From contig PBJR01000019.1 in assembly GCA_002721175.1 (NCBI GenBank), forward strand, positions 15,067-70,071: a DNA stretch of 55,005 bases. Direction: 5' to 3'. The notes below the pieces were generated by a model that worked only from the letters and a program-made list of their open reading frames with translations, had not been told where the DNA came from and did no database searches. Source of the stretch: Flavobacteriaceae bacterium (GTDB lineage Bacteria; Bacteroidota; Bacteroidia; Flavobacteriales; Flavobacteriaceae). The translations under genes and the position numbers were made by a program. Below, one piece after another: positions 16,888-21,034 of the stretch; the stretch's first letter is position 1; each line of letters starts with the position of its first letter.

Positions 16888-17589
16888 TTACTTTTCAAGC
16901 TCCTCTTTTTTAGTTGAAATTGCATTCTTTGCCAAAATTGCTAAGTTGAATTTGGGGGCTAATGCCAATGATTCATCTAATATAGCTGTTGAGAAATCAT
17001 GATTTGATTCTGGGTCTTCACTATACTTTGCTATTGCTTTTAAATATAAAAATGCAGCCTTCAGTGGGACTTGATAAGGTTGTTGAGTTTCGTAAAAAGG
17101 TTTCATCATATCGGAAGAACAGTTAGCAATTCCATAAGTTATATTTAAATTGGCTCCTATCAAGTCATTCAATTGAATTTTTAAATCCGCTAATTCATAT
17201 GCAAGACTTGCACTAGGTATGCGCTTGAAAAGTAATTCATAATGCTCTAATGCCCGTGTAGGTTGATTTAGAGCTTTCAAACATATCGCCTTTACTTCAA
17301 CCATCATGTTTGTATCATTGTCGTTTGTATCAATTCCAATCAAATTCAATGCCTGAAAATATTTACCATCATTCATATATCTCAAAGCGAGAGTGTCACT
17401 CCTTTTTACATTAGGCTCTAATATAAGTAGATGAGTCATTGCATTAATTATTCCCTGAGCATCGTCTTGTTTTAACATTTGAGTATAATAAGATTTGTAA
17501 TGACTTAATAAATCTGACTCTTCTTGAGCATTATTCGATTGAAATAAAAAGAAGATAAAAATGACACTGAGAGTAATTTTATATTTCAT
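16888..17589 (-). CDS. Exported TPR-like protein
   Basis: A 233-residue protein with a signal peptide (1-21, ending QSNNAQ). Short helical repeats of TPR type are visible: KYFQALNLIG, AICLKALNQPTRALEHYELLFKRIPSASLAYELADLKIQL, given here as one repeat pair at about 110-150, and FLYLKAIAKY near 190. It probably works in the periplasm. It converges with the propeller gene (10-nt gap) and lies downstream of the ammonium transporter gene, but a strong terminator separates them, so it should have its own promoter in 17590-17655. The function is unknown. Confidence 0.7.
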   Translation of the reverse strand: MKYKITLSVIFIFFLFQSNNAQEESDLLSHYKSYYTQMLKQDDAQGIINAMTHLLILEPNVKRSDTLALRYMNDGKYFQALNLIGIDTNDNDTNMMVEVKAICLKALNQPTRALEHYELLFKRIPSASLAYELADLKIQLNDLIGANLNITYGIANCSSDMMKPFYETQQPYQVPLKAAFLYLKAIAKYSEDPESNHDFSTAILDESLALAPKFNLAILAKNAISTKKEELEK

Positions 17590-17746: not shown

Positions 17747-19060
17747 TTATTCCCTTTTTCTCTTTCCAGCGTAGGGTAAGTCACCATGTTCAGATAAACT
17801 AAGTCCTTCGATCTCTTCTTTTTCAGTAACTCTAAGACCGAGGGTAATTTTTAATATAAAAAATACTGCGAGTGATAGTAATACAGCCCAAATTGCATAT
17901 GAAAAGGCACCTGTTAATTGTATAACGAACTGTTCGGTCCCTCCACCATTAAACATACCAATGCCTTCTGAACCACCTGCAGAATCAACACCCCAAAGTC
18001 CTATTACAATGGTACCCCAAAACCCTGCAACTCCGTGCACAGAGGCAGCACCAATGGCATCGTCGATTTTAAGTACTTTTTCTATAAATTCAATAGAAAA
18101 TACAACAATAATACCACCAATTAAACCAGCTACCAAAGATCCAACTTCTGTCATATTTCCACAACCTGCTGTTATGCTAACTAGTCCAGCCAAGCAACCA
18201 TTTAAGGTGTGAGACAGATTTGGCTTTCCAAGGTAAAACCAAGTTGTAAACAAGGCACCTAAAGCTCCAGCTGCTGCCGCTATATTGGTGTTAAGAACAA
18301 CTTGAGATGCACTTATAGTAGAATCTCCGCCCCAAGCTAACTCGGAACCACCATTAAAACCAAACCAGCCTAACCAGAGTATAAAAACACCCAAGGTTGC
18401 TAGTGTTAAATTGTGACCTGGAATGGGGATAACTTTTCCATCTACATATTTTCCAATTCGTGGACCTACCATGTAGGCGGCAACAAGTGCGGCAAATCCA
18501 CCTACTCCGTGAACAATAGATGAACCAGCAAAATCAATAAACTCCTTCTCGAAAAAATACCCTTCGACATCATTCAACCAACCTCCGTTCCACTCCCATC
18601 CGCCTGCAATGGGATAAATAATAGCTGTCATGACAACTGTAAATATTGCGTAGGTAGAAAATTTAGTTCTTCCTGCAATAGCTCCAGAAACTATAGTAGC
18701 GGCTGTAGCAGCAAACATTGTTTGGAAAAATAAGTCAGCACCATCTCCTTGCATTATACCTTTCCAAAAAAACCAACCGTTCTCTGTATCACCATACATT
18801 AAAGAATAACCAACAAACCAATATGCTAAAGTTCCAACACAGATGTCTAACATATTCTTCATGGCGATATTAACTGCATTTTTGGATGCGGTCATTCCTG
18901 ACTCTACAAGAGTAAATCCAGCTTGCATGAAGAAAACTAAGATACCTGCTAAAAGCATCCACAGCATACCTAAGTCAGTTCCATCGCCACCAATTGTAGC
19001 AAATTCAGGGGCATCTTCAATTGCGATAAGGGGGATATTAATAAAAAGTGAATTGAACAT
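17747..19060 (-). CDS. amt: Ammonium transporter (Amt/MEP/Rh family)
   Basis: A 437-residue inner-membrane channel for ammonium uptake with about eleven membrane helices. Family signatures are clear: the DFAGSSIVHGVGG block with the first pore His, and VHGVAGFWGT carrying the second. AAATAATIVSGAIAGR and LGWFGFNGGS are typical Amt stretches. The short charged cytoplasmic tail ends LPYAGKRKRE. No P-II (glnB/glnK) gene is adjacent, which is common but means control partners are elsewhere. A good TTTG-N22-TACTTTTG promoter and a repeated G5/C5 motif lie upstream, suggesting regulation by nitrogen status. Confidence 0.95.
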   Translation of the reverse strand: MFNSLFINIPLIAIEDAPEFATIGGDGTDLGMLWMLLAGILVFFMQAGFTLVESGMTASKNAVNIAMKNMLDICVGTLAYWFVGYSLMYGDTENGWFFWKGIMQGDGADLFFQTMFAATAATIVSGAIAGRTKFSTYAIFTVVMTAIIYPIAGGWEWNGGWLNDVEGYFFEKEFIDFAGSSIVHGVGGFAALVAAYMVGPRIGKYVDGKVIPIPGHNLTLATLGVFILWLGWFGFNGGSELAWGGDSTISASQVVLNTNIAAAAGALGALFTTWFYLGKPNLSHTLNGCLAGLVSITAGCGNMTEVGSLVAGLIGGIIVVFSIEFIEKVLKIDDAIGAASVHGVAGFWGTIVIGLWGVDSAGGSEGIGMFNGGGTEQFVIQLTGAFSYAIWAVLLSLAVFFILKITLGLRVTEKEEIEGLSLSEHGDLPYAGKRKRE

Positions 19061-19130
19061 AATTATTTAATTATTTTTTTAAAAAAAGAGATTTAATTTT
19101 GCAATACTCTTTTTTTGATTAATGATTAAA

Positions 19131-19164
19131 CAAAAGTATTAATTTAATATTTAAGACCCACAAA
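19131..19164 (-). promoter_or_regulatory. Promoter of amt
   Basis: On the - strand, TTTG (complement of 19161-19164) and TACTTTTG (complement of 19131-19138, fits TAnnTTTG) are 22 nt apart. The expected transcription start lies about 65 nt before the ATG at 19060. One copy of an AAAAAATAGGGGG element overlaps the -33 region. Confidence 0.6.
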
Positions 19165-19228
19165 AAATAGGGGGCTTTTTTTTAAATTTATATAATTAAT
19201 AATTATTACCCCCAAAAATTAGGGGGTA
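19162..19228. repeat. Repeated (A)n-T-A-GGGGG element and palindrome upstream of amt
   Basis: Two near-identical 13-mers, AAAAAATAGGGGG (19162-19174) and AAAAATTAGGGGG (19214-19226), start 52 nt apart, about five helical turns. The distal copy is half of a perfect 7-bp inverted repeat, TACCCCC-N8-GGGGGTA (19207-19228). G/C runs stand out strongly in this AT-rich region. The arrangement looks like an activator or repressor site for amt. The 19061-19357 stretch holds no other feature apart from the amt promoter and a hairpin near 19270. Confidence 0.5.
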
Positions 19229-19251
19229 TATAAATTTAGATAGTTATTTTA

Positions 19252-19282
19252 AATAAAATTAATAATCTATCATTAGATTATT
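19252..19282 (-). terminator. Probable terminator of metG
   Basis: A perfect 9-bp AT-rich stem, AATAATCTA (19261-19269) and TAGATTATT (19274-19282) with loop TCAT. Read on the - strand it is followed by AATTTTATTT. It lies about 75 nt after the metG stop. The stem is weak because it is almost all A/T, so confidence is moderate. Confidence 0.4.
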
Positions 19283-19357
19283 TCAAAATGCAAGTGAATT
19301 ATTTAGCAATAAATTTTAAAAGTCCAAGAGATGCATTAGACTGAGTTATTTAATTTT

Positions 19358-21034
19358 TTATGAGTTTAGTTTAGAGAGCTGACTAAAAATTTGTGAGTCT
19401 TCAATTTTATTAAATAATAATTCAGCCTGATTTATTCTGTGATGAACAGGTAAAAGTATATCTCCAGACGTTATACCATCCCATGAAAGTTCTTTATCTA
19501 ATACTAACATCGATTTTAATCGAGATGAAGTGAAGGGTAAAAAAGGCTCAGAGACAAGAGCCAAACCAGCAACAATTTGTAATGCTGTATTTATAACAGT
19601 TTGAACACGAATTGGATCGGACTTAATTAATTTCCAAGGTTCTTGATCCGCTAAATATTTATTACCACTACGTGCCAAGTTAATCATTGTTTGGTTAGCC
19701 TCCCTGAATCGAAAACGATCTAAAGAAAATTTCAGAGAATTTGGTGTTTTGGACAATAAATCCAACACATAATGATCATCGCTCTTCAAGTCAGTAGCAC
19801 TGGGTACATGACCCTTATAGTATTTATGAGTTAAAACCACAACTCGGTTCACAAAATTACCAAAAATTGCAACCAATTCATTATTGTTCCTGGACTGAAA
19901 ATCCTTCCATGTAAAGTCATTATCCTTAGTCTCTGGAGCTGTTGAGATCAAAACATATCTTAAAACGTCTTGTTGGTTTGGAAAATCTTTCAAATAATCT
20001 GTTAACCATACCGCCCAATTTTTTGATGTTGATATTTTTTTCCCCTCTAAATTTAGAAATTCATTTGCGGGAACATTTTTTGGTAAAATATAACTCCCTT
20101 CAGCTTTTAACATTGAGGGAAAAATTATACAGTGGAAAACAATATTATCCTTGCCAATAAAATGTACTAAGCTTGTATCTTGATCCTTCCAATAGGGCTC
20201 CCAGTCTTTACCTTCTTTCTTTGCCCATTCTTTGGTTGAAGATATATACCCAATTGGTGCATCAAACCAAACATAGAGAACTTTACCTTTTTCCCCTTCA
20301 ATAGGAACAGGAATACCCCAATCTAAATCTCTTGTTACAGCTCTAGGACGCAAATCGTCATTAATCCAAGACATGCATTGTCCATAAACATTCGATTTCC
20401 AATCATTTTTATGTTCTTCTCCGATCCATTGTCTTAAAAATTTTTGATACTTATTTAAAGGCAAGTACCAGTGTTTAGTTGATTTGAGAATTGGCGAATT
20501 TCCTGAAATTACAGATTTAGGATCTATGAGGTCAGTTCCATTATGAATGCTTCCACAAGCCTCGCACTGATCGCCATAGCTTTCATTATTACCACATTTA
20601 GGACATGTCCCAACTACAAACCGATCAGGTAAAAATTGTTTAGCGTCAGAATCGTATAATTGATCAGAAACCTCTACAACGAATTTGTCATTCTCATATA
20701 ATTTTTTAAAAAAATAGGAAGCTGTCTCATGATGAATAGTATTTGATGTACGAGAGTAATTATCAAAAGAAATACCAAATTCAGCAAAAGAATCTTTGAT
20801 AATTTTATGATATCGATCAACAATGATTTGAGGACTGACATTTTCCTTTTTAGCCTTAATTGTGATGGGTACTCCATGCTCATCACTACCACATATAAAA
20901 ACAACATCATTTCCTAAAAGTCTTAAGTAACGAGCATAAATGTCGGCCGGAATGTAAACTCCCGCCAAATGACCAATATGAATAGGACCGTTAGAGTAAG
21001 GTAACGCAGCCGTTAGAGTAAATCTTTTTGACAT
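19358..21034 (-). CDS. metG: Methionyl-tRNA synthetase, form without C-terminal tRNA-binding domain
   Basis: A 558-residue class I aminoacyl-tRNA synthetase that charges tRNA-Met. The HIGH motif is PIHIGH (17-22). A zinc-binding knuckle is CPKCG...CEACG (about 144-160), and the KMSKS-type loop reads KISTS (about 330-335). The anticodon-binding helical domain covers about 385-545. The protein ends shortly after this domain. Many flavobacterial and enteric enzymes carry an additional Trbp111-like dimerisation and tRNA-binding domain of roughly 100 residues, which is missing here. Downstream DNA (19061-19357) shows no remnant in any frame, so this is a genuine short form rather than a frameshift. 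Confidence 0.93.

Follow-up and report, generated by a model that had tools for sequence, protein, structure and literature searches.

A paired-dyad operator of a probable nitrogen-assimilation regulon in the Flavobacteriaceae

The ammonium transporter gene amt in the analyzed stretch of a Flavobacteriaceae genome (55,005 nucleotides, hereafter the window) is preceded by two palindromic sites that very probably constitute the operator of a nitrogen-assimilation regulon, present in Flavobacteriaceae and in some relatives of the same order. The sites, which are putative protein-binding sites, have a consensus near TACCCCTA-N6-TAGGGGTA and stand 52–54 bp apart, a distance of five helical turns that would place them on the same face of the DNA; a conserved A-rich stretch lies between them. 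The reading is based on sequence comparison, which shows the pair and its spacing, how far it usually stands from a -7 box, that it is conserved and that it concentrates at nitrogen genes. In the open-licence PubMed Central literature on nitrogen control, no description of a flavobacterial nitrogen-regulon operator was found.

Organization of the amt Control Region

The elements of the region, all on the minus strand, are as follows.

17747..19060 (-): amt, ammonium transporter (TIGR00836), target of the window's operator
~19126 (-): predicted transcription start of amt, from the -7 box
19131..19138 (-): predicted sigma-A -7 box TACTTTTG; consensus TAnnTTTG, -12 to -5
19156..19175 (-): proximal dyad GCCCCCTATTTTTTGTGGGT; predicted centre at about -38 to -39, right arm at the -33 place
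19184..19193 (-): A-rich element ATATAAATTT between the dyads; consensus of relatives ATAAAAAT, visible in named genera
19208..19227 (-): distal dyad ACCCCC-TAATTTTT-GGGGGT; predicted centre at about -91 of the amt promoter, kept in relatives
19261..19282 (-): A+T-rich hairpin, a possible metG transcript end, separate from the operator
19358..21034 (-): metG, upstream of amt across a 297 bp spacer

A preliminary description of the region had pointed out two near-identical 13-mers, AAAAAATAGGGGG starting at 19162 and AAAAATTAGGGGG at 19214. They are indeed 52 nt apart, and no further exact match exists in the window or in its 1.67-Mb assembly (87% complete). Each proves to be one arm of a dyad ACCCC-N10-GGGGT, and the dyad starts are also separated by 52 bp. 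The palindrome TACCCCC-AAAAATTA-GGGGGTA was correctly recognized. The other copy also forms a dyad, which had been missed: ACCCCCAAAAATTAGGGGGT (19208–19227) matches at 10/10 arm positions and ACCCACAAAAAATAGGGGGC (19156–19175) at 8/10. Read towards amt, the distal dyad is ACCCCCTAATTTTTGGGGGT (19227 to 19208) and the proximal one GCCCCCTATTTTTTGTGGGT (19175 to 19156). The supposed rarity of G5 runs is contradicted by the counts: chance would give 4.7 G5 and 7.7 C5 start positions, and 13 and 12 were counted.

Only one pair in the window (in four overlapping registers) scores at least 16/20 at a distance of 51–54 bp, and 200 mononucleotide shuffles of the window yielded a single pair of at least 16/20 in total and none of at least 18. 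Single dyads were rejected as a genome-wide sign for being too unspecific, the motif CCCC-N10-GGGG occurring 74 times in 11 genomes of the genus against 40 for the reversed control. The specificity lies in the pair and its spacing, not in the single dyad.

The neighboring metG of the window encodes 558 aa, against 682–683 aa in the genus relatives G002 and G005, and the end of the PRK00133 model (after position 543 of 676) is absent from it.

Conservation of the Pair Upstream of amt

Lack of conservation before orthologous amt genes had been named as the observation that would speak against a nitrogen-responsive site. The gene amt was found in 40/60 relatives, six of which carry genus orthologues at ≥80% identity, and in 6/6 of these both dyads stand at the same place, some with one arm worn. 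In the remaining four genus members searched (G003, G007, G008, and G010) the pair precedes glnK-amt2. At a wider scale, 56 amt loci of the order were picked by protein search and not by the motif, 30 of them holding at most 1.5 kb of upstream DNA. These loci contain 47 dyad pairs at 51–54 bp, distributed over 27/56 loci, against 0–13 in the other 5-bp bins and three in the 50–54 bin of an everted control; 120 control loci around regulator genes gave one dyad pair. The 54 amt loci from outside the order, which are richer in G+C, show no spacing peak (27 in the 50–54 bin, 6–41 in the others).

The pair can be followed into named taxa. Seventeen of 40 scanned loci, out of 80 named ones, score at least 15, the maximum in 10 dinucleotide shuffles per locus being 12–15 for these carriers; in 16 the pair is upstream of amt and in one (L282) downstream. 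The carriers comprise Leeuwenhoekiella blandensis MED217, L. palythoae, Winogradskyella, Kordia, Algibacter, three Flagellimonas, Allomuricauda, [Muricauda] yonaguniensis, Galbibacter, Zunongwangia, Confluentibacter, and four MAGs not assigned to a named genus. Scores below 15 were obtained for the remaining 23 of the 40, including two Tenacibaculum, two Polaribacter (14 and 11), Aureibaculum, Aquimarina, Wenyingzhuangia, a Flavobacterium MAG, Flaviramulus, and Bacteroidales and Prevotella loci.

Target Genes

A profile of the paired operator, built from the sequences of 21 operators (A1, R1), was used to search 120 whole genomes of the family, which represent 119 genera. The best match reaches E ≤ 1e-7 in 60/120 genomes and E ≤ 1e-4 in 76. 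At E ≤ 0.01 the number is 104, which includes chance matches because these set in near 1e-4 (at E ≤ 1e-3, 17 genomes from outside the order match). The scan gave no match in 16/120 genomes.

The surroundings of 86 matches were read, and 81 lie upstream of nitrogen genes. The share is 31/31 at E ≤ 1e-10, 13/13 from there to 1e-7, 18/20 between 1e-7 and 1e-5, and 19/22 above 1e-5. Once the nine training rows, all at E ≤ 1e-10, are removed, 72/77 matches precede nitrogen genes, and 35/35 of those at E ≤ 1e-7. The 81 targets are glutamine synthetases GSII and GSIII together (18), amt2 with glnK (13), glnK (10), gltB with a porin (10), GSIII (8), ald (6), gltB with a second outer-membrane type (5), amt1 (4), glnK with gltB (2), the second outer-membrane type (2), a third amt type (2) and gltB (1). 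GSII, GSIII, ald and the third amt type were outside the training set of the profile. The five matches away from nitrogen genes (L118, L123, L269, L273, and L278) are chance matches or unknown targets. The same site is thus found before several unlinked nitrogen genes and before few others, as would be expected of a regulon operator. The suggestion that the repeats are a regulator site of nitrogen genes is borne out to this extent, and the further targets that had been predicted, glutamine synthetase, gltB and P-II genes, carry the pair as well as amt.

The genome of the window contains three operators, at amt, at gltB/porin and at GSII-GSIII. The dyads of the gltB/porin operator are exactly 52 bp apart (E 6e-14, a training row), and the weaker GSII-GSIII operator (15/20) is located between the divergent genes for glutamine synthetases II and III. 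The porin that shares its operator with gltB is a BBP2 protein (PF07642; L073:6505-7464), and a BBP2 gene directly precedes amt in G019, G024 and others. This β-barrel porin is a candidate outer-membrane channel for nitrogen compounds: the composition of the target set, with amt, glnK, two glutamine synthetases, gltB, porin-like genes and sometimes ald, suggests that it serves nitrogen uptake.

Other genes recur near the targets. A crcB-like gene near glnK and a CaCA-like exchanger near GSIII were each seen at 23 loci, some of which are the same place counted twice, and GSIII is also neighbored by BlaI-like (13 loci) and BlaR1-like (12 loci) genes.

Position Relative to the Promoter and Mode of Action

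Measured from the centre of the near dyad, a TANNTTT box begins at 24–28 bp in 103/157 operator-gene pairs, with a peak at 26 (53 pairs) and 0–8 at other positions. The strict form TANNTTTG was found at 25–27 bp 57 times in 135 operator-gene pairs, against twice in one shuffle. The box is most regular at glnK (32/35), amt (14/15), GSII (13/16) and porin genes (20/27), and less so at GSIII (12/25), gltB (7/21), ald (2/6) and other genes (3/12). No TANNTTT was present at the expected distance in 54/157 pairs, with gltB and ald poor in it, and the divergent GSII/GSIII loci have the box on both sides in only 6/14 cases. At the window's amt, the overlap with the -33 region that had been proposed is confirmed, since 17 bp separate the end of the near dyad from the -7 box TACTTTTG. 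According to a study on Flavobacterium psychrophilum, positions -12 to -5 are occupied by the sigma-A box TAnnTTTG (PMC9723704). If that numbering is applied here, the near dyad would be centred at about -38.5 and the far dyad at about -91, with the GGGGT arm at about -33 to -29 in the predicted numbering. In 103 of the 157 pairs, the operator therefore holds a fixed position relative to the predicted promoter.

This arrangement can be read in mechanistic terms. The near site, about 38 bp before the start, would take the place of the -33 element, and the far site would lie near -91. A dimeric protein would occupy each dyad, and the two dimers would cooperate. Because the -33 place is filled by an arm of the site, the regulator that binds the operator is probably an activator, or mainly so, making up for the missing -33 element with the help of the far dimer. 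Its signal would be nitrogen supply, as the nature of the target genes indicates. The preliminary description favored a looping regulator; a 52-bp same-face pair would also fit cooperative binding or wrapping without a loop, and looping may be no more than one of the options.

A repressor on the same operator, covering -33 in one nitrogen state and strengthened by looping to the distal site, is a less likely reading, although the geometry lends it some weight. The near dyad does overlap -33, and looping repressors usually have two sites on the same face, as found here. The GGGGT arm, on the other hand, fills the -33 place and does not flank it, and the weak core promoter seems to need help, a point that tilts towards activation and is not decisive. 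Far more improbable is that the dyads act as RNA hairpins, either as a terminator of the upstream gene or, within the amt leader, as an attenuator. In favor of such a role, the spacer between metG and amt folds better than its shuffles (z -3.7). Against it, no U run follows either dyad on the minus strand, both dyads are upstream of the predicted transcription start, and the same pair occurs between divergent genes (GSII/GSIII and gltB/porin) where nothing ends. A search of Rfam with positions 19000–19450 returned only two matches, both far below the gathering score. The earlier statement that the repeats are not the metG terminator agrees with this, and the separate A+T hairpin to which it referred exists at 19261–19282.

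In Prevotella ruminicola, amtB, glnK, glnN-2 and gltBD shift together with ammonium and are higher when it is plentiful (PMC5552732). This finding cautions that Bacteroidota may respond to nitrogen in another direction than enterics do.

Reach of the Operator and Its Worn Forms

Outside the family, weak profile matches appear in other families of the order, the best at 4e-7 to 4e-6 (G161, G038, G172, and G208); the G038 operator is itself a training row of the profile. The pair or part of it is present at GSIII of G161 (18/20), GSIII of G172 (15/20) and amt of G208 (14/20). In a class-level scan of 149 genomes, none from outside the order reaches 1e-7. The two best of these outside matches, in G320 (1.4e-6) and G353 (1.6e-5), lie directly upstream of GSIII, and the third best, in G383, does not.

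GSIII was also sought in 30 genomes, namely 29 with no or weak profile matches and that of the window, and the gene was found in 20. Among the 19 loci other than the window's, six have a pair of 15–17/20, and in eight (L396, L398–L402, L404, and L407) GGGGT half-sites occur as direct repeats 51–53 bp apart. The GSIII loci of G032 and G033 contain neither pair nor half-sites. From the pairs in 6/19 and the half-sites in 8/19 loci, it follows that a missing operator often reflects erosion. The half-site array would fit the survival of a single arm per dyad, and the direct repeats are perhaps a second form of the same operator.

Candidate Regulators

TACCCCT fits the NarL heptamer, and for this reason a NarL/LuxR type was considered. 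The only GerE protein found in the genome of the window is an orphan response regulator of NarL type, encoded between nadE and dnaG (L170:1063-1698, G000:C11). As a universal binder it was rejected, being absent from genomes with good operators: no orthologue at E < 1e-50 was found in G035, G131, G089, G084, G094 and G013 (completeness 100, 95, 94, 90, 84 and 80%), whose operators are all at E ≤ 1.2e-9. The orphan is present in most of the 120 family genomes; in the eight aligned members, the position of its phospho-acceptor Asp, assigned by eye, carries S, T or E.

The Lrp/AsnC protein linked to ald (AsnC1) was likewise rejected. No match at E < 1e-40 exists in G150, G017, G083, G094 and G137, all with an operator at E ≤ 1e-7; of these, G083 reaches 88% and G094 84% completeness, and the pair of G017 scores only 14/20. 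G150 (99% complete, one contig) lacks AsnC1, yet has a 19/20 operator before glnK-amt2. The absence of AsnC1 coincides with absent or weak operators in many genomes, and its lack in 10/16 genomes without a profile match points to some link by descent or function.

Since AsnC1 is missing from genomes with good operators, a binder of Lrp/AsnC type would have to be the paralogue AsnC2, with the array wrapped on a multimer. Lrp-type proteins recognize phased sites with A+T centres and respond to amino acids, properties that would suit the array, and the best solved relative is E. coli AsnC. A Lrp/AsnC match at E ≤ 1e-12 occurs in 120/120 genomes, a count in which AsnC2 orthologues are not separated and a breadth that is not specific evidence. 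The 12 AsnC2 loci examined, picked by Lrp/AsnC match, are without the operator, and the identification is doubtful.

A small MerR-type protein (~110 aa) acting like TnrA/GlnR of Bacillus is less probable again. A frame for it was found in 35/36 genomes, including all 20 chosen as operator-bearing, and it is the only MerR protein found in the genome of the window. Against it, 15/16 genomes chosen as operator-lacking have it too (G080, 82% complete, has only a longer one), and in the fetched loci it adjoins alaS and an M23-type peptidase (labels by eye) in place of nitrogen genes. It is closer to the models of MerR, HspR and CueR than to TnrA, and with 19.8 bits against a cut-off of 140 for the TnrA model of NCBIfam it is not a specific TnrA/GlnR homologue. 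A TnrA-like MerR was thus set aside as present nearly everywhere and not specific. Neither the small MerR nor AsnC2 is itself preceded by the operator: dyads of at least 9 number two in 30 small-MerR loci and one in 12 AsnC2 loci, against 44 in 56 amt loci. As regulators, AsnC2 and the small MerR are possible but unsupported.

Among the neighbor genes listed, no regulator gene accompanies the operator regularly beyond a single genus; the recurrent ones are the BlaI-like gene beside GSIII (13 loci) and a LacI gene. The latter (PF00356) stands directly behind amt1/amt2 in eight genus relatives (L010, L015, L020, L021, L023, L031, L467, and L468; G002 and G005 included). Behind the amt of the window there is no LacI gene but a gene at 16888–17589 without an NCBIfam match.

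Comparison With Known Systems

In the class III tandem activator promoters of E. coli, CRP sites are located near -41.5 and -91, with arms ~11 bp apart. The flavobacterial promoters resemble them in having a near site over -35/-33 and a second one some five helical turns farther upstream, on the same face. They differ in that the arms are 14 bp apart (~11 in CRP), the sequence is unrelated and the -7 box is of Bacteroidetes type. The operator may therefore work like a class III tandem promoter, which does not imply membership of the regulator in the CRP family.

Among nitrogen regulators, cyanobacterial NtcA recognizes GTA-N8-TAC near -41.5, and what the two have in common is a controlling palindrome, placed close to the class II position, at amt and glutamine synthetase genes. 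Sequence and width differ, and a regular second site at 52–54 bp is not known to belong to the definition of NtcA operators. The TnrA/GlnR operators of Firmicutes (TGTNA-N7-TNACA) share with the present one a wide palindrome, its location at glutamine synthetase and amt-glnK genes, and global nitrogen control. Their sequence is different, and the one MerR protein found in the window's genome is not specifically TnrA/GlnR-like. The NtrC/sigma-54 system of Proteobacteria also places paired palindromes before glnK-amt and glutamine synthetase genes. By contrast, many promoters here (103/157 pairs) carry the sigma-A TAnnTTTG box at a set distance. The sigma-54 regulon of F. psychrophilum has been linked to protein quality control, envelope stress and gliding (PMC9723704).

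Biological Significance

In the organism of the window, amt, the gltB/porin pair and the divergent glutamine synthetases would be switched together. That the pair acts as the master operator for nitrogen control in the Flavobacteriales, and perhaps in further Bacteroidota, under a regulator so far unnamed in this role, is about as likely as not. The matches before GSIII in G320 and G353 hint at a phylum-wide system, which would be independent of NtrC, NtcA, GlnR/TnrA and AmtR.

Bacteroidota are major consumers of organic matter, and little appears to be known of how they switch nitrogen assimilation. The pair provides an exact DNA bait for the regulator together with a list of target genes, and a sign, readable from the genome, of which flavobacteria may control which nitrogen genes together.
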